IMG/VR virus record: IMGVR_UViG_3300009182_000084
Coordinates: 1 to 52,798 of that record
Strand: one strand, 5' to 3'
Source: a virus
Length of the DNA stretch: 52,798 nucleotides
The notes beneath the pieces are model-generated. The model was given only the letters and a program-made list of their open reading frames with translations. It searched no databases and was not told where the DNA came from. The position numbers and the translations under genes were made by a program. This document shows positions 4,676 to 51,369 of the stretch, in pieces (the stretch's first letter is position 1; each line of letters opens with the position of its first letter).

Positions 4676-4751
4676 TGGAGCCTCAAGCAGGACTTGAACC
4701 CGCCACCTTCTCATTACAAGTGAGATGCTCTACCAGATGAGCTATTGAGGC
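4676..4751 (-). tRNA. tRNA-Thr (UGU)
   Basis: A complete cloverleaf: acceptor GCCTCAA/TTGAGGC, D-arm GCTC/GAGC, anticodon stem TCTCA/TGAGA with loop CTTGTAA (anticodon TGT), T-arm GCGGG/CCTGC with TTCAAGT. The 3' CCA is encoded (4676-4678). It reads ACA codons, which suit an AT-rich phage genome. Confidence 0.92.
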
Positions 4752-4755
4752 AATC

Positions 4756-4801
4756 GGCTTCTCAATCCCTGTGTAAACTGCCACTGGCACATATTGAAGC
4801 C
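4756..4801 (-). other. structured spacer between tRNA-Asn and tRNA-Thr
   Basis: On the minus strand GGCTT+CAAT pairs with ATTG+AG+AAGCC around an inner GCC-AGT-GGC hairpin. This makes a roughly 46-nt stem-loop that fills the spacer between the two tRNA genes. It is not a tRNA. It may help processing of the tRNA precursor. Confidence 0.4.
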
Positions 4802-4804
4802 TTG

Positions 4805-4876
4805 CTGACCACCCTGGACTCGAACCAGGAACCTACGAGTTAACAGCTCGGTGCTCTGCCATTGAGCTAGTGGTCA
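4805..4876 (-). tRNA. tRNA-Asn (GUU)
   Basis: Cloverleaf: acceptor TGACCAC/GTGGTCA, D-arm GCTC/GAGC, anticodon stem CCGAG/CTCGT (one mismatch) with loop CTGTTAA (anticodon GTT), T-arm CCTGG/CCAGG with TTCGAGT, discriminator G as usual for Asn. The bases after it are CAA, so CCA is not encoded and must be added by the host. Confidence 0.88.
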
Positions 4877-8038: not shown

Positions 8039-8085
8039 GTTTATCCTTACGTTTTAACCATTATGACATGGTTACAGGGGCGTTT

Positions 8086-8571
8086 TTAGCTTAACTTTCG
8101 GTAATTCCATGCCGATTTTTTGTTAGCAGACTCAGAAAGCTTACGAGAGGCTTTTACGGTATCCGAATCTGGAATAAGTTTGGGGTTCTTTTGCAACTTT
8201 AGGTGCAGTTTCTCTTCTTGGCGAGTCATTGGGCGCATTCCGCCATTAATGCCCGAGGTTGTCATTCGCTGCGGGGGCGTTTCACGGTTAAATTTTTCAC
8301 CAGTGTATTCAGGTGTGCAGAGTTGACAATAGGCTGGTTGCTTACCCATATAGAAAATCATCTTGGTTTTGTCTGCATTAGGCACACCTTGCACACGTAC
8401 GTTGAACAAGTGGCCGAGTTTGGCAGCGTTAACCTGCTGCTCAAGAGCGGCTTCGCTTACTAGCTTCTGTCCGTAGCTGCGGTTGCTGTAATTCTCAATG
8501 TGTACGACCTCGTCCTTCCACTTGTGGAGTTTATCGTGGTCGAAACCTGGAACTGTAATTTTTCTTGCCAT
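8086..8571 (-). CDS. hypothetical protein, first gene of the leftward operon
   Basis: The 161-residue basic protein contains a CQLC pair near residue 82-85 in YCQLCTPEYTGEKF, preceded by a predicted beta segment (KTMIFYMGKQPAYC in outline). The C-terminal 60 residues are Lys/Arg-rich and probably disordered. It is the gene closest to the divergent control region on the left, so it would be the first product of leftward transcription from there. No family is recognised. Confidence 0.55.
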   Translation of the reverse strand: MARKITVPGFDHDKLHKWKDEVVHIENYSNRSYGQKLVSEAALEQQVNAAKLGHLFNVRVQGVPNADKTKMIFYMGKQPAYCQLCTPEYTGEKFNRETPPQRMTTSGINGGMRPMTRQEEKLHLKLQKNPKLIPDSDTVKASRKLSESANKKSAWNYRKLS

Positions 8572-9084
8572 AGAGCTATTTTAGGGCTACTGTGTCGATA
8601 ATGTAGGCTCAACCGTGTATTTCACCTGGCCGTATTGTTATACAAATGTGACTTAACCCTACCCCCTCGATTGTTATACATTTGTAACGTTACGCACCCG
8701 TTACATTGGGGATTTCTCGGTCTGATAGTCTGATTGAGCGTCAGCAACACCCAGAACCGAGTATAACAATCAGGTAACGCTCGGGGTGTGAAACCAAGTG
8801 TAACACTTGTGTAACATCTCCGTTATCTCTTTGTTATACGCGATAGGTGTCGGCTGTTACACAATAGTTATCAACAATGTATAACAAGTGTGTAACTAGC
8901 GTATTTCAGAAGGCTAACGACCTATGCGTTGGGTCGCCAGATAACATTTAGGTTACAGTGTATAACGAGTGTATAACACTGCTAGGTTTCGTCGCCTAGT
9001 CTGGCACGCATACTCACCAGAGATGCCGTTATGTATAACAAATACGTAACGCTAATCGCCAATACTATCTCGAAAGGATAACAA
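8572..9084. promoter_or_regulatory. divergent intergenic control region with paired TAAC sites
   Basis: This 513-bp stretch has no credible gene and separates the leftward from the rightward operon. It contains about 20 half-sites of the form (T/G)(A/G)TAAC or its complement GTTA(T/C)A. Eight pairs lie in the same orientation exactly 11 bp apart, at (first base of TAAC or GTTA) 8689/8700, 8764/8775, 8801/8812, 8822/8833, 8856/8867, 8882/8893, 8963/8974 and 9036/9047. A perfect palindrome GTAACGTTAC lies at 8684-8693. One turn between half-sites implies tandem binding on one DNA face. Promoters for both operons must lie here, and an origin is also possible. Confidence 0.85.
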
Positions 9085-9666
9085 ATGGCACGCAACAACA
9101 AGTTACAGACAACCTTCATCAAGGCAAACCGCAAGGATGTTGCCGAAGACCCTGCCGTCAAGGCACTTCGGAAGCAGTTGGCGGATGCGGAAGCAAAGGC
9201 GGCTAAAGCCGTCAGCGCCGAAGTTGACGCAATCCTGATTGGCGACAACAAGCCAACGGCAAACCTTCAGGTTGACGCCTCGTACCTCAAGGTGGCAATC
9301 GAAGGCGCAAAGGCGCTTTGCGCTTCTTGGAGAGTCGTCGAAGACAATGCCGAAAGCCGCAAGGCGTTCGAGAACCGCAAGGCTCGTCGCATCGCCGCTT
9401 ACAACAAGATTGTTGATGAGCAGGGGCAGGCAGAAGCAGACAAGAAGTTCGTCGGGGGTAACCCTGCTGTGGTTGACCAGTTCAACCGCTTCATTGGAGC
9501 AAGCGCTAAGTACGCTTACGAACAAGCCGTTGAAGAAGGCGTAAGCCAGAAGCAGGCATTCTTGGCTGTAATGGCAAAGTACCGCTTCTACCAGCAGACG
9601 CTGGGGTTCAACGAAGCACAACTTGACTCGCTCATTGAGCAAGCCAAGACACTCGTCACAGCGTAA
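9085..9666 (+). CDS. hypothetical helical protein, first rightward gene
   Basis: The 193-residue protein starts behind GAAAGGATAACAA. It is rich in Ala, Lys, Glu and Gln and looks fully alpha-helical, with an N-terminal coiled-coil segment (about 25-50) and no Cys-based metal site. Base composition is visibly more GC-rich than the following small genes. Being the first gene after the TAAC array, it is a candidate for an abundant early protein or for the array's own binding partner, though no DNA-binding motif is seen. No family is recognised. Confidence 0.6.
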   Translation: MARNNKLQTTFIKANRKDVAEDPAVKALRKQLADAEAKAAKAVSAEVDAILIGDNKPTANLQVDASYLKVAIEGAKALCASWRVVEDNAESRKAFENRKARRIAAYNKIVDEQGQAEADKKFVGGNPAVVDQFNRFIGASAKYAYEQAVEEGVSQKQAFLAVMAKYRFYQQTLGFNEAQLDSLIEQAKTLVTA

Positions 9667-12299: not shown

Positions 12300-12536
12300 A
12301 TGACTAACAACCAAGTAATCATTGCTGCCTACAAGGTAGTGTTGAAAGACTTCAAGGCAGATGCTGAGAACTATATGTCAGTAGTTGCTGACGCAGTTCT
12401 TAGTGCTTTGAACATGCGTATTGATGAGTTGGAAACTATCTGGCAAGACGAACCACTTGAAGATGTAACCGATGAAGATATGGAAGCACACATCGTTGAA
12501 CTTGCTAACGATGTTGAACCATTACAAGGAGAATAA
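12300..12536 (+). CDS. small acidic hypothetical protein
   Basis: The 78-residue protein is acidic and helical with no Cys (DELETIWQDEPLEDVTDEDM in the middle). It starts behind AAGGAGTAACAC. It is the first of three short genes separated by only 2 bp. Such acidic small phage proteins can mimic DNA or inhibit host proteins, but there is no direct evidence here. Confidence 0.55.
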   Translation: MTNNQVIIAAYKVVLKDFKADAENYMSVVADAVLSALNMRIDELETIWQDEPLEDVTDEDMEAHIVELANDVEPLQGE

Positions 12537-18815: not shown

Positions 18816-18946
18816 TGACTGAACTAATGGAGCCAACCACCTGCGATTGGTGTGACGCAGTATTCGATTATCAACTAGGTGGATATGTAGGGCCTGACCA
18901 CGTATGCCCTGAGTGCCTAGAATTTGAAGATGGGATTGAAAAATAA
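18815..18946 (+). CDS. small zinc ribbon protein (43 aa)
   Basis: CDWC (10-13) and CPEC (31-34) form a second minimal ribbon directly after the previous one. The remainder is acidic. TAATG overlaps at both ends fix the frame. It may be a diverged duplicate of the gene at 18639. Confidence 0.55.
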   Translation: MTELMEPTTCDWCDAVFDYQLGGYVGPDHVCPECLEFEDGIEK

Positions 18947-19431
18947 TGCAGACATTCATTACTAAATTAAACTATCGTGACATTGCTAAAGAACTAGACA
19001 ATAAACGATTAAATAAGCAAGCTCTCGAGGGCTGGCAGATTCTTATGAATCTGTTAGCCATTGACCCTGATGGCAACCATCGTGAACCTAAAGGTTGGTC
19101 TAACCATCCAGCAGTCAAGATGTGGCGTGGTTATGAGATGCAACTAGCAATTTATGTTATTGCTATGTGTGATGAATGGATTGAGCGTGGTTACAATACT
19201 GTAGTTAGGCAACGAGTAGAAGATACAATGCGTCATGCTGCCTTATTGAACAGGTCTATTGGAGTAGACTTGCCACCATGGTATGTAAATATTAATACTC
19301 TTGCAGATGTTGCTAGTAGCCACAGAAAAGCATTGCTAAACAAAAACTACAATTGGTATCACCAGTTTGGTTGGCCAGAAGATGATGGCTATCCACCACA
19401 GACCTACGAATACGTATGGCCAGTAGAGTAA
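18946..19431 (+). CDS. pyrimidine dimer DNA glycosylase / endonuclease V-like protein (MSMEG_6728 type)
   Basis: The 161-residue protein matches the endonuclease V-like pattern: MQTFITKLN at the start, ELDNKRLNKQALEGWQIL, GWSNHPAVKMWRGYE and DEWIERGYN. T4 DenV cleaves at cyclobutane dimers by a glycosylase/AP-lyase mechanism that uses its N-terminal Thr. Here the start reads Met-Gln-Thr, so Thr is third and the canonical N-terminal nucleophile is not directly available. The MSMEG_6728 branch found in actinobacteria has the same start as I recall it. It acts on DNA in the cytoplasm. Confidence 0.75.
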   Translation: MQTFITKLNYRDIAKELDNKRLNKQALEGWQILMNLLAIDPDGNHREPKGWSNHPAVKMWRGYEMQLAIYVIAMCDEWIERGYNTVVRQRVEDTMRHAALLNRSIGVDLPPWYVNINTLADVASSHRKALLNKNYNWYHQFGWPEDDGYPPQTYEYVWPVE

Positions 19432-21180: not shown

Positions 21181-21401
21181 GTGGAAGTAAAGATTTAAAA
21201 GTATTAATAAAACAAGCGGAACAACAAGGATGGGAAGTTGGGTTAACAAAGAGTGGCCACTGGAGATGGATATCTCCTACTGGTAAATCAATCTTTTGTT
21301 CCAAGACTCCATCCGACTATAGAATGATTCTAAACTTTAAGCGTGAGCTTAAAGGCCTAGGGTTCATTGACATCACAAAACAATCAAGGAGAAAACGATG
21401 A
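21177..21401 (+). CDS. HicA-like (YcfA) double-stranded RNA-binding-fold protein
   Basis: The 74-residue protein fits HicA: a helix LKVLIKQAEQQGWEVG, then TKSGHWRWISPTGKSIFCSKTPSD. The conserved Gly-His is present; the His is the catalytic residue in HicA mRNA interferases. HicA normally pairs with a HicB antitoxin, but neither neighbour looks like HicB. It may be a phage effector that degrades host mRNA or a non-toxic RNA-binding protein. ATGA overlaps link it to the gene before and to the WhiB gene after. Confidence 0.7.
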   Translation: MSGSKDLKVLIKQAEQQGWEVGLTKSGHWRWISPTGKSIFCSKTPSDYRMILNFKRELKGLGFIDITKQSRRKR

Positions 21402-21631
21402 TTAATTCAGAACAAGCAGCATGTGCTGGAGAAGACACAGCAATCTTCTTCCCAGAACCTGGGCCACATGCCAGGGGTGACACAGCACTAGCCAAAGCCA
21501 TCTGTGCGTCTTGTCCCATAATCAAAGAATGTCTAGCCTTTGCGTTAGCCAATGATGAGTATGGTATCTGGGGCGGCACTACAGACTACGAACGTCGTCG
21601 CACCAGCAAGTACAAAAATATTGTAGTGTAA
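21398..21631 (+). CDS. WhiB-family iron-sulfur regulator
   Basis: The 77-residue protein has the four WhiB cysteines: one in AACAGED, then CASCPIIKEC (C-x2-C-x5-C), plus YGIWGGTTDYERRR, the Gly-rich turn and basic C-terminal segment that bind sigma factor and DNA. WhiB proteins hold a [4Fe-4S] cluster and contact the primary sigma factor; phage versions can block or redirect host WhiB. It is the last plus-strand gene and overlaps the HicA-like gene by 4 bp. Confidence 0.92.
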   Translation: MINSEQAACAGEDTAIFFPEPGPHARGDTALAKAICASCPIIKECLAFALANDEYGIWGGTTDYERRRTSKYKNIVV

Positions 21632-23879: not shown

Positions 23880-25373
23880 CTATTCTAATGAATCCTTGAT
23901 TATGAACGTGGTTTGCTCTTCGTTTAGTGGCTGATTTAGCTCTCGCAATGCCTGCGCTTTGTCACCAAAAATTGCTGACAGTACACCTCCCGATGTCTGG
24001 CGGCTGGCAGTAATCTGAACAAACTCTTTATTGCTTTCCAGGTCCTTGACTGACGCCACCAACTTCAACAATCTGTCCATTTCCTGGGACGTATTTGGGT
24101 CTGCGTATCCACCATTCAATTCTTCTGCAAACCGCATAAATGCTACTCTCTGGCCCTGCATCTCAACAATTGCGGTCAACAAACCCTTCAGCTGGTCCTT
24201 GGTTTTAACTTCAATTGGCAGGTTAAATGCACACGTGTTTGCTGGCTTAAATGCGGGGCAATTCGCTGCGACAAAACAGGTATCGCACTGTCTCAAACTG
24301 GCACTATTGGACTGAACTACGGGCACATCTTTTAGTACATCACGACCGTCTTCTGTCTCCACAATAGTCTTCATCTGATACCCCAAAACAGGCATTGAAA
24401 TGACTTCATTTGGGTCTCTTTGCACTACCTCTGTGCGTTCAACTTTCCGCACTTCGGACCCCTTGTTATTAGATGGGTCTATATCCAAATCCATCAAACC
24501 ACTGTATAGGGTATTATCACTGTTATCAGATACTTTGTCACCTTGAATGAGCTTCAGCTCTGGTTTTTCTTTATCCATTTGCTTCTCTAACTGTAAATAT
24601 GACCAAACCGCAACTTTTGTTGCTTCTAATGTGTCATCACCTTTGAACTTACCAAAATCAAATCCCGCTTTTTCAACTACACTTTTGTATCTTAAACGGG
24701 CTTGGTCTTTCATCTTTTTTGGATAACGAACCAGCTTTGACCCGTCCCAAATAATTGTTTCACCTCGCCGCATTGGGCTCAACCACGACAATGTGCTGGC
24801 AGTATCAAATGGAATTTGCCTCAGATTGTCTGGTTTTGCTGTTGCCAATGCGTGGAACTCGGTCCCGTATGTTCTTTTTAAACTTCTAACTGTTCCTGAT
24901 AATGACGTAACTGTTTCGATTACATCCCCTGGAATTGCAACATTTTTGTACTCTTCCGACCACTGTCGCAACATGGCAGAACTGTATGTATCGTGCCAAA
25001 CTACCCACATCTTTGGGTCATTTTCAAATGCGGCCCGCTGCTGTTGAACCCAATTTAGGCCCAACACTTGGCTATCAAACTCTACCCAGCCTTCAATTCG
25101 TTCATAATTTAATGCAATAAACTCTTCATAGTCCGCCGCGTACTCCTCGAGCTCACGAACTGACCACCCAGCTTTATCTGCTTGAACTGCTCCTGAATCT
25201 ACCCACACTTTCATGTTTGGGAGGAAATGCTCACCAATTAGATACGCCTTTGTCTTTGGCAAACCTCTTTTGCGCAATCCCCAGTACGACAACATAACTT
25301 GGTCTACGCCTGTGCGTTCCAATAACGTCCTGTTTGATGGTACTTCTACCCCACCAAAAATCAACTTACTCAA
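23880..25373 (-). CDS. TGT/DpdA-like TIM-barrel protein with Cys-rich C-terminal domain
   Basis: The 497-residue protein uses a TTG start (25373-25371). The N-terminal ~300 residues resemble tRNA-guanine transglycosylase-fold phage proteins: VWVDSGAVQADKAGWS (compare DSGAF/DSGGF with the catalytic Asp), a following YAADYEEFI helix and the strand WVEFDSQVLGLN. DpdA-type members insert 7-deazaguanine bases into DNA. The C-terminal part carries CDTC, CPAF and TCAFNLP, likely a metal-binding domain, followed by a helical region. Base-modification activity is inference and no 7-deazaguanine synthesis genes are seen in the window. Confidence 0.45.
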   Translation of the reverse strand: MSKLIFGGVEVPSNRTLLERTGVDQVMLSYWGLRKRGLPKTKAYLIGEHFLPNMKVWVDSGAVQADKAGWSVRELEEYAADYEEFIALNYERIEGWVEFDSQVLGLNWVQQQRAAFENDPKMWVVWHDTYSSAMLRQWSEEYKNVAIPGDVIETVTSLSGTVRSLKRTYGTEFHALATAKPDNLRQIPFDTASTLSWLSPMRRGETIIWDGSKLVRYPKKMKDQARLRYKSVVEKAGFDFGKFKGDDTLEATKVAVWSYLQLEKQMDKEKPELKLIQGDKVSDNSDNTLYSGLMDLDIDPSNNKGSEVRKVERTEVVQRDPNEVISMPVLGYQMKTIVETEDGRDVLKDVPVVQSNSASLRQCDTCFVAANCPAFKPANTCAFNLPIEVKTKDQLKGLLTAIVEMQGQRVAFMRFAEELNGGYADPNTSQEMDRLLKLVASVKDLESNKEFVQITASRQTSGGVLSAIFGDKAQALRELNQPLNEEQTTFIIKDSLE

Positions 25374-49700: not shown

Positions 49701-50422
49701 TATTTCTTGCGAAGGTCTTCACCCTTGATACGGACACGAATAAACGCTTCGTGTGCAAAGCTGCCCATAGCTTCGCCATACTGTTCTTTCCAAACTTCAC
49801 GGGCCACGTTTGTAGTGATGATTGTTGGGAGTGCTTTGTCATAACGACTACGAAGAATCTCATCAAACGAAGTGTCGTCATACTTTGAACCATATTCCTT
49901 GCCAAGGTCATCAAGAACCAAAACACGGACATTCAAGTGGTCATCTTTTGCACGACCATGAAACCCCTCCATCTCTCGATAAAGGTCTTTCTTGCTTTCA
50001 GAGTCAGCGTCAATCAAAGCCTTCTTGCGAGAAAGAAATTCTGGGAAAGTCATGTAGTAAACAGGACGAGCATTCATCCCATAGTTTTCTGCACTCATTC
50101 CAAGAACCTCACGAGCCTGGTCGTTTTCTTCTGGAAGACGACGAACAAACTCCATCAAAGAAGTTACAGCATGCGTAGTTTTTCCTAGACCTGGACCACC
50201 ATCAAACAAAAGTCCAACGCCAGTAGTTCCTAGTCCACCTACCTGCTTGATAACCTCGCCATCAAGAGCCTGCTCTAGCCAGTCCTCAATGATTGCAGGA
50301 AAACTGCCCATGGTCTTTGCGATATCCGATGGCTCAAGACCAAGAAATCTGCGTGGAATGTTTGAATTTTTAAGCAACCAGTAGCGCTTGTTGCTTGATA
50401 GTGAATTGATGTCGTATGACAT
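49700..50422 (-). CDS. DnaC-like AAA+ helicase loader
   Basis: The 240-residue protein has Walker A GGPGLGKT (75-82), Walker B VLVLDDLGKE and sensor-type ITTNVAREVW. N-terminal residues 1-60 hold a helix that could bind helicase. It belongs to the DnaC/IstB AAA+ group that loads DnaB at origins. The neighbouring winged-helix and DnaB-like genes fit this. It overlaps both neighbours by one base. Confidence 0.85.
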   Translation of the reverse strand: MSYDINSLSSNKRYWLLKNSNIPRRFLGLEPSDIAKTMGSFPAIIEDWLEQALDGEVIKQVGGLGTTGVGLLFDGGPGLGKTTHAVTSLMEFVRRLPEENDQAREVLGMSAENYGMNARPVYYMTFPEFLSRKKALIDADSESKKDLYREMEGFHGRAKDDHLNVRVLVLDDLGKEYGSKYDDTSFDEILRSRYDKALPTIITTNVAREVWKEQYGEAMGSFAHEAFIRVRIKGEDLRKK

Positions 50423-51369
50423 TATGCCCTCCTTAGTTTTTCTTCGTAACGTTCTAATGCTGCCCTACCTGGCATAGAGTTGTCAAACTCAGTACCATCT
50501 GATGCTTTAATAACTTCATCCATCTTAGTCTCAACCACAGTTACTGATGACTGCTCAGCTACAAAATTAGTGATTGCATTCAAGAAAACTCCGTGAGTAT
50601 TTTTTGGAAACTTACGAAGAGTAGCGACGTTTCTAGCATCTGAAAAGAACTTGTCCATTGCAGCTATTTCTACTGCAGCAGTAGTCCCATACTTCTTGCG
50701 GTTAGTAGCTAGAGCAATGGAAAGGCGTTTGGTATTGACCATCCCTGGAACTCCAGGAATCTTTGCATAAACACGGCTTGCAAATTCTGAAGCAACCATC
50801 TGTGCAGTCCACGATTCAGTAGGACGCTCACTACGGTGTGCCTTTGTCTTTGCCTGCTTTTGCGCTGCTGGTAGTTCGCCCTCAAGCAAACCTACACCAG
50901 CAATATCATCGTCATCATTCCAACGATTAACCATCTTGCCCTCCATCGGGGCCTTGGCCCCAAAAGAATACGAAGTATTCTTTACTATTGTCTTATCTGT
51001 ACCAGTAGTAACAATTACAGTATTACTATCAGCTGTTGATGTTGCATCTGTGAAACATGGTACAACACTATTTGGTGCTGTGTCAACACCCTCATGTTTA
51101 TTTTTGAAACATGGACTAATCAAACGATAATTGTTTTTATGGAGCTTGCCAAGATTGCGCTTGGTGCGGTTAATTGCTAGCAGACCCTTTGACTCTAGCA
51201 CAGACATGTCCCGCCACAATGTTGTGCGGCTAAGGCCCGTTGCTATTCCTAAAGTATCCATGGTTGCGTCTACCCCACCATTAGAATCTGCCATTCGATT
51301 CATAATAGCAAACAGGTAGAATTCATTAGGTTTTAGACCCATGTCCAAAACCTCATCAGGTATTTCCAA
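50422..51369 (-). CDS. winged-helix replication-initiator-like protein
   Basis: The 315-residue protein has an N-terminal winged helix with GLKPNEFYLFAIMNRMA, LGIATGLSRTTLWRDMSVLESKGLL and a wing, resembling phage DnaD/replication-initiation proteins. The remainder is partly disordered with a second helical domain (ASRVYAKIPGVPGMVNTKRLSIA). It lies directly upstream of the loader, as initiators usually do. It may bind the phage origin. Confidence 0.7.
   Translation of the reverse strand: MEIPDEVLDMGLKPNEFYLFAIMNRMADSNGGVDATMDTLGIATGLSRTTLWRDMSVLESKGLLAINRTKRNLGKLHKNNYRLISPCFKNKHEGVDTAPNSVVPCFTDATSTADSNTVIVTTGTDKTIVKNTSYSFGAKAPMEGKMVNRWNDDDDIAGVGLLEGELPAAQKQAKTKAHRSERPTESWTAQMVASEFASRVYAKIPGVPGMVNTKRLSIALATNRKKYGTTAAVEIAAMDKFFSDARNVATLRKFPKNTHGVFLNAITNFVAEQSSVTVVETKMDEVIKASDGTEFDNSMPGRAALERYEEKLRRA

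Follow-up and report, generated by a model that had tools for sequence, protein, structure and literature searches.

A dense array of MtrA-like boxes between the divergent gene blocks of an actinophage, a candidate operator for the host response regulator MtrA

The virus record G000, a 52.8-kb stretch of DNA analysed over its whole length of 52,798 nucleotides (hereafter the window), carries a dense array of paired TAAC half-sites closely matching a published MtrA box. The array lies in the divergent gap at 8572-9084, the boundary between a leftward and a rightward gene block, as originally observed. We consider it fairly probable that this gap is an operator array where host MtrA would bind and govern transcription of both flanking blocks, in the simplest case as an activator of the rightward one. 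Binding by MtrA, the direction of its effect (activation, delay or titration), the purpose of the arrangement and the true host are matters on which we infer from sequence.

Within 8637-9082 there are 25 TAAC or GTTA cores, and eight same-orientation pairs of them, within 8637-9050, are spaced by exactly 11 bp. Three such strict pairs lie on the minus strand (8689/8700, 8822/8833 and 8856/8867) and five on the plus strand (8764/8775, 8801/8812, 8882/8893, 8963/8974 and 9036/9047), while no other spacing between 4 and 30 bp gave more than two pairs in the region. The entire window holds 11 strict pairs, 8 of which fall inside the array. A random-shuffle control with 2000 exact dinucleotide shuffles of 8622-9084 yielded 0.05 strict 11-bp pairs on average and never more than 2, compared with the 8 observed, and the best count at any spacing of 5-40 bp in the same shuffles was at most 3. 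These results confirm the eight pairs reported in the initial annotation, as well as their location between divergent operons. Relaxing one half-site to RTnAC gave 12 boxes (shuffle mean 0.1, maximum 3), that is, about 12 boxes in 420 bp, arranged as isolated pairs in both orientations. Several of the "single sites" of the initial annotation belong to pairs with one degenerate half (GTCAC-N6-ATAAC at 8637, GTTAC-N6-ATAAC at 8673 and ATAAC-N6-GTTAC at 8941) or, as the core at 8811, overlap the 8822 box.

The 12 boxes share the consensus RTnAC-R-A-W-T-n-n-RTAAC-R-A-T, with a tabulated half-site of R-T-A-A-C-R-A-(T/A) and 11-bp spacing. This consensus was derived first, and the published Corynebacterium MtrA box was found only afterwards. 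The C. glutamicum box reads (A/G)TAACAATttn(A/G)TAACAAT (PMC3353115), and the array consensus matches it closely in half-site, linker length and the A or G at the first base, the array being built of RTAACAAT direct repeats, each 8 bp long and joined by a 3-bp linker. Scoring against this published motif found 9 sites of at least 13/16 in the array versus a Markov expectation of 0.04, and one such site in the remainder of the window. Across the three arrays known to us (see below), the first base is A or G in 56/56 half-sites, with any first base permitted in the scan, and A in 25/56. The suspected likeness to MtrA boxes gains support from the C. glutamicum box and from the retention of the array in two relatives. 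The parts of the control region, together with its flanking genes and two further genes discussed below, are as follows; scores out of 16 give the match to the published C. glutamicum consensus.

8086-8571, minus strand: first gene of the leftward block, 161 aa, without a known family
8584-8629, no strand: left flank of the control region, GGGCTACTG...CAACCGTGT...CCTGG, from by-eye comparison with L317, L307, L301 and L298
8634-8652, minus strand: MtrA-like box GTCACATTTGTATAACAAT, 14/16
8670-8688, minus strand: MtrA-like box GTTACAAATGTATAACAAT, 14/16
8689-8704, minus strand: strict TAAC pair GTAACGGGTGCGTAAC
8763-8781, plus strand: MtrA-like box ATAACAATCAGGTAACGCT, 14/16
8800-8818, plus strand: MtrA-like box GTAACACTTGTGTAACATC, 13/16
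8819-8837, minus strand: MtrA-like box ATAACAAAGAGATAACGGA, 12/16, with which a weaker pair at 8811 overlaps
8853-8871, minus strand: MtrA-like box ATAACTATTGTGTAACAGC, 13/16
8881-8899, plus strand: MtrA-like box ATAACAAGTGTGTAACTAG, 13/16
8941-8959, plus strand: MtrA-like box ATAACATTTAGGTTACAGT, 13/16
8962-8980, plus strand: MtrA-like box ATAACGAGTGTATAACACT, 13/16
9035-9053, plus strand: promoter-proximal MtrA-like box ATAACAAATACGTAACGCT, 13/16
9063-9068, plus strand: candidate -10 element TACTAT, 28 bp from the start of the proximal box
9085-9666, plus strand: first gene of the rightward block, 193 aa, without a known family
21398-21631, plus strand: WhiB-family protein, an actinophage marker (Pfam E 8e-21)
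50422-51369, minus strand: O-like replication initiator gene (PHROG O-like/DnaD-like)

By eye, the left flank at 8584-8629 is alike in several relatives, array-bearing or not. A separate element, GnTACAGGGGCGTTTTA, recurs near leftward gene starts, at 8071-8087 and in four weaker copies in the window (5 matches versus 0.4 expected), and also in L301, L307 and L317; it may act as promoter or leader for the late block.

The VWA gene was placed by protein search in 10 of 31 relative records, and the divergent gap was comparable in most of these when the surrounding DNA was compared. The relative G014 (contig L317) carries an array of 10 boxes in the corresponding divergent gap, and G031 (L309) one of 7 boxes in the same gap, each exceeding 2000 shuffles. 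Both relatives are distant, and in both the sites are rearranged with the 11-bp spacing kept. The flanks in G014 resemble those of the window, with GGCTACTG...CAACCGTGT on the left and GAAAGGATAACAATG ahead of the start codon on the right; a second contig, L522, the best match of a scan for double RTAAC pairs, repeats the G014 array region. The array is absent from the gap in at least seven relatives (G009, G010, G013, G019, G020, G024 and G029), the gaps of G013 and G010 holding one relaxed pair each, and it is likewise missing from the comparable gap of the named relatives GMA6, DalanDe and Cantare. A pattern search of 50 relative records gave no further clusters, searches with DNA or flanking proteins found no relatives, and a scan with the AAA ATPase led to a distant group without arrays. 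Since the array is present in G014 and G031 and absent in at least seven relatives, its distribution appears patchy, with strong turnover of sites, and it would therefore be nonessential to the phage family. Of the conservation expected in homologous phages, the 11-bp spacing is kept wherever an array is present, but the array as a whole is missing from those seven or more relatives.

Several proteins identify the window as an actinophage: the WhiB-family protein, a DNA polymerase I and DnaB whose best matches are in BRock-group Streptomyces phages, and a CobT/von Willebrand-like protein resembling ones from Gordonia and Brevibacterium phages. It probably represents part of a larger genome, because several contigs among the 341 IMG/VR relatives of its DnaB helicase (the best 80 of 341 at 65-85% identity) measure 88-96 kb. 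It also encodes a SpoVS-family protein (PF04232, E 4e-29), a queuine tRNA-ribosyltransferase-like gene (23883-25373, minus strand), a pyrimidine-dimer glycosylase/MSMEG_6728-type gene (18946-19431, plus strand), two tRNA genes for Thr and Asn (4676-4876, minus strand) and many small proteins without a known family. The O-like gene lies about 41 kb from the array, and its region is probably the replication origin. Relatives carry palindromic GTAAC-N6-GTTAC repeats inside their O-like initiator gene (L237, L240, L244, L253, L254 and L256), and the window's own O-like gene has other repeats, ATGTTTC...AAACAT, by eye.

We propose that the control region at 8584-9085 would serve as an operator array for host MtrA, with dimeric MtrA sitting on each pair of 8-bp half-sites, at 11-bp spacing, as a tandem dimer. 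The proximal box at 9035-9053 stands 28 bp before the candidate -10, where an OmpR/PhoB-type activator would contact RNA polymerase, and because of this position MtrA would probably switch the rightward block on. The other approximately ten boxes could support cooperative loading of MtrA and its action on leftward transcription, and may in addition sequester free MtrA. Phage transcription would thereby follow the MtrAB state of the host, whether this reflects division, envelope or osmotic status, and the virus probably reads the host state through MtrA, a regulator that in Actinobacteria connects replication and division with the envelope and that Mycobacterium tuberculosis requires as an essential protein.

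The promoter geometry recurs in a second genome. The proximal box starts at 9035 and TACTAT at 9063 in the window, an offset of 28 bp, and in G014 the box starts at 12323 and TATTAT at 12351, again 28 bp apart; both hexamers lie 21-22 bp ahead of the start codon. At an offset of 28 bp, a bound protein would occupy the -35 region as PhoB-type activators do. Since a sigma-70 consensus scan found no promoter at the candidate -10 in the window, and the wider set of viral boxes showed no peak at the 28-bp offset, this two-genome geometry is at most suggestive.

None of the three array-bearing records, G000, G014 and the 95.8-kb G031, encodes an OmpR-type DNA-binding domain (Trans_reg_C, PF00486), and the binder is therefore probably a host protein. 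As a stand-in host we took the order of the metagenome-assembled actinobacterial genome G051, which is linked to the phage weakly, through a ribonucleotide reductase 63% identical to the phage's; the genomes of this order measure 0.6-2.2 Mb, which would be in keeping with Nanopelagicales. Of 101 genomes in this weakly linked stand-in order, 97 have an MtrA that scores above the family cut-off. A similarity search with MtrA through the 1.16 Mb read of G062, a nearly complete genome of the order, found three OmpR-type regulators, identified by best PDB match and sequence as MtrA, GlnR and a RegX3-like protein. In the G062 MtrA, the segment ADTRLVNVHVQRLR is identical to that of M. tuberculosis MtrA. 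The MtrA-type box was not enriched in G062 over other linker lengths, and the scan exposed GlnR-type sites, from which the main rival explanation arose. Order-wide, the box matches, left unsummed, look modestly above a control pattern, and no box was found ahead of mtrA itself in the candidate order, where mtrA directly follows ahcY. Boxes of the form RTAACRATTTGRTAACRA are found repeatedly in the order, upstream of ABC substrate-binding-protein genes of RbsB-like and other kinds, the same gene lying downstream in 12 of 30 box loci examined, and ATAACGATTTGGTAAC is identical in a chromosomal site of the order and in the G031 array. Chromosomal sites with A or G as first base would, by our reasoning, be bound by MtrA. 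A conserved RTAACRATTTGRTAAC box stands before an RbsB-like substrate-binding-protein gene in L532-L534, L537, L539-L541, L543, L544 and L551-L553, and these sites form a candidate MtrA (or GlnR) regulon of that order.

Among the other possible binders, the main rival is GlnR, through which the phage would sense nitrogen supply. Its boxes, GTnAC-n6-GTnAC and gTnAc-n6-GaAAc, have the same core and the same 11-bp spacing, and in Streptomyces the two regulators can be competitors at nitrogen genes (PMC10704036). The array pairs with G-starting halves conform to the GlnR core and spacing, about half of the half-sites starting with A; the candidate order has a GlnR homologue and GlnR-type boxes before amtB, such as GTAACCCGCTTGTAACACA, and before glnA (L538). 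However, at amtB the first base of the likely GlnR half-sites is G or T, with A in 0/40 (20 distinct boxes) versus 25/56 in the arrays (Fisher p ~1e-7, indicative only because related sites are non-independent), and the 3' parts of the half-sites differ as well, so we regard GlnR operators as unlikely. Slightly less likely still is a phage-encoded regulator without an OmpR-type domain, whether WhiB with a partner, the SpoVS-like protein or one of the many small proteins of no known family, all of which the phage encodes. OmpR-type regulators characteristically use tandem 8-bp half-sites separated by 3-bp linkers (PMC3353115), but 0/3 array-bearing records encode such a protein, and under this alternative the resemblance to the host box would be a coincidence; the idea of the phage's own regulator, raised in the initial annotation, is disfavoured by the missing PF00486 domain.

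The initial annotation proposed that host MtrA may be either recruited or titrated away, and recruitment is the reading we favour. That the array is mainly a decoy drawing MtrA off the chromosome, rather than a control of phage transcription, seems to us about as improbable as GlnR binding. About 12 boxes in 420 bp exceed the need of one promoter and would presumably multiply along with the phage DNA, but the array sits in the divergent gap, its proximal box keeps its distance to the candidate -10 in two phages, and in viral contigs generally 91 of 120 boxes among the matches listed stand alone, lacking another box in the surrounding 300 bp, which is too sparse for a decoy. Replication iterons, another earlier suggestion, are very improbable. 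Origins can have direct repeats of one helical turn, and the skew sign changes at the array, yet this change is what any divergent operon pair gives. Moreover, the array consists of isolated pairs in both orientations and not of a tandem same-orientation run, the O-like initiator gene is elsewhere, and the palindromic repeats of relatives lie within that gene.

Beyond these relatives, an exact pattern, RTAACRATTTGRTAACRAT, based on published boxes and on the candidate host order, matched at least 112 viral stretches. Its sites were intergenic in 91 of 120 cases among the matches listed, versus 15% expected from the non-coding share by the same gene caller, a bias that AT-rich composition can also yield. 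A WhiB-like protein was found in 11 of 112 of these loci versus 0 of 117 control loci of the GTAAC-array pattern (Fisher p 3e-4, among the matches listed), and in 2 of 96 loci from the double-RTAAC-pair scan. We suggest tentatively, with doubt slightly outweighing belief, that in several actinophage lineages the control regions contain boxes for MtrA, the host's cell-division and envelope regulator, from which the phages would take a timing or state signal for infection. This would be an independent invention of the strategy of the alphaproteobacterial CtrA-site phages, and the present phage family would show the actinophage version in an extreme form.

Two scans returned other kinds of repeats. 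The matches of the GTAAC-array pattern were mostly unrelated tandem runs, several beside terminase genes, in a layout that differs from the array, and the double-RTAAC-pair scan, besides the second copy of the G014 region, returned DnaA-box runs. Tandem 11-bp GTTAC runs occur in the unrelated viral contigs L083, L064, L029, L013 and L058, several adjoining terminase small-subunit-like genes, and are perhaps packaging or partition sites; DnaA-box-like GTTATCCACAG runs lie near terminase-like genes in the unrelated viral contigs L462, L475, L520 and L439.

A search of the open literature, subscription papers being outside its scope, found no papers linking phages to MtrA. With the MtrA regulon boxes of C. 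glutamicum (PMC3353115) and Streptomyces (PMC5650626, PMC13189361) the array has in common the RTAACAAT direct repeat, the 3-bp linker and the tandem-dimer geometry, and it differs from them in its phage genome, its approximately 12 boxes per gap and their two orientations. A closer parallel in layout is offered by the CtrA-site-rich gaps of alphaproteobacterial phages ("lytic deferment"), which have gel-shift and reporter proof (PMC9437464). There, too, boxes for a host cell-cycle regulator of OmpR type, TTAA-N7-TTAA and likewise of 11-bp spacing, are densely clustered in an intergenic gap, which in one case separates divergent gene blocks; such clusters evolved independently several times and show high site turnover, strongly so between phiCbK-like relatives (PMC9437464). 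The array shares the dense intergenic cluster, for a predicted host OmpR-type regulator, but has TAAC-N7-TAAC cores of MtrA type in place of TTAA-N7-TTAA, and its WhiB protein and nearest named relatives are actinobacterial, not alphaproteobacterial; the link of CtrA to flagella and pili is inapplicable here. PhoBR control of cyanophage genes, established by gel shift and transcriptomics, likewise places phage promoters under a host OmpR-type response regulator, but involves PhoB and phosphate, with few boxes per promoter. If phages do read MtrA, the host cell cycle or osmotic state would bear on when infections proceed in dominant freshwater actinobacteria, and lytic deferment, hitherto described for CtrA, would prove to be a strategy of general reach. 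The array is best read as an actinobacterial counterpart of the CtrA-site arrays, like the CtrA and PhoBR systems yet a member of neither, because its regulator and phylum are different and its role is predicted from sequence.
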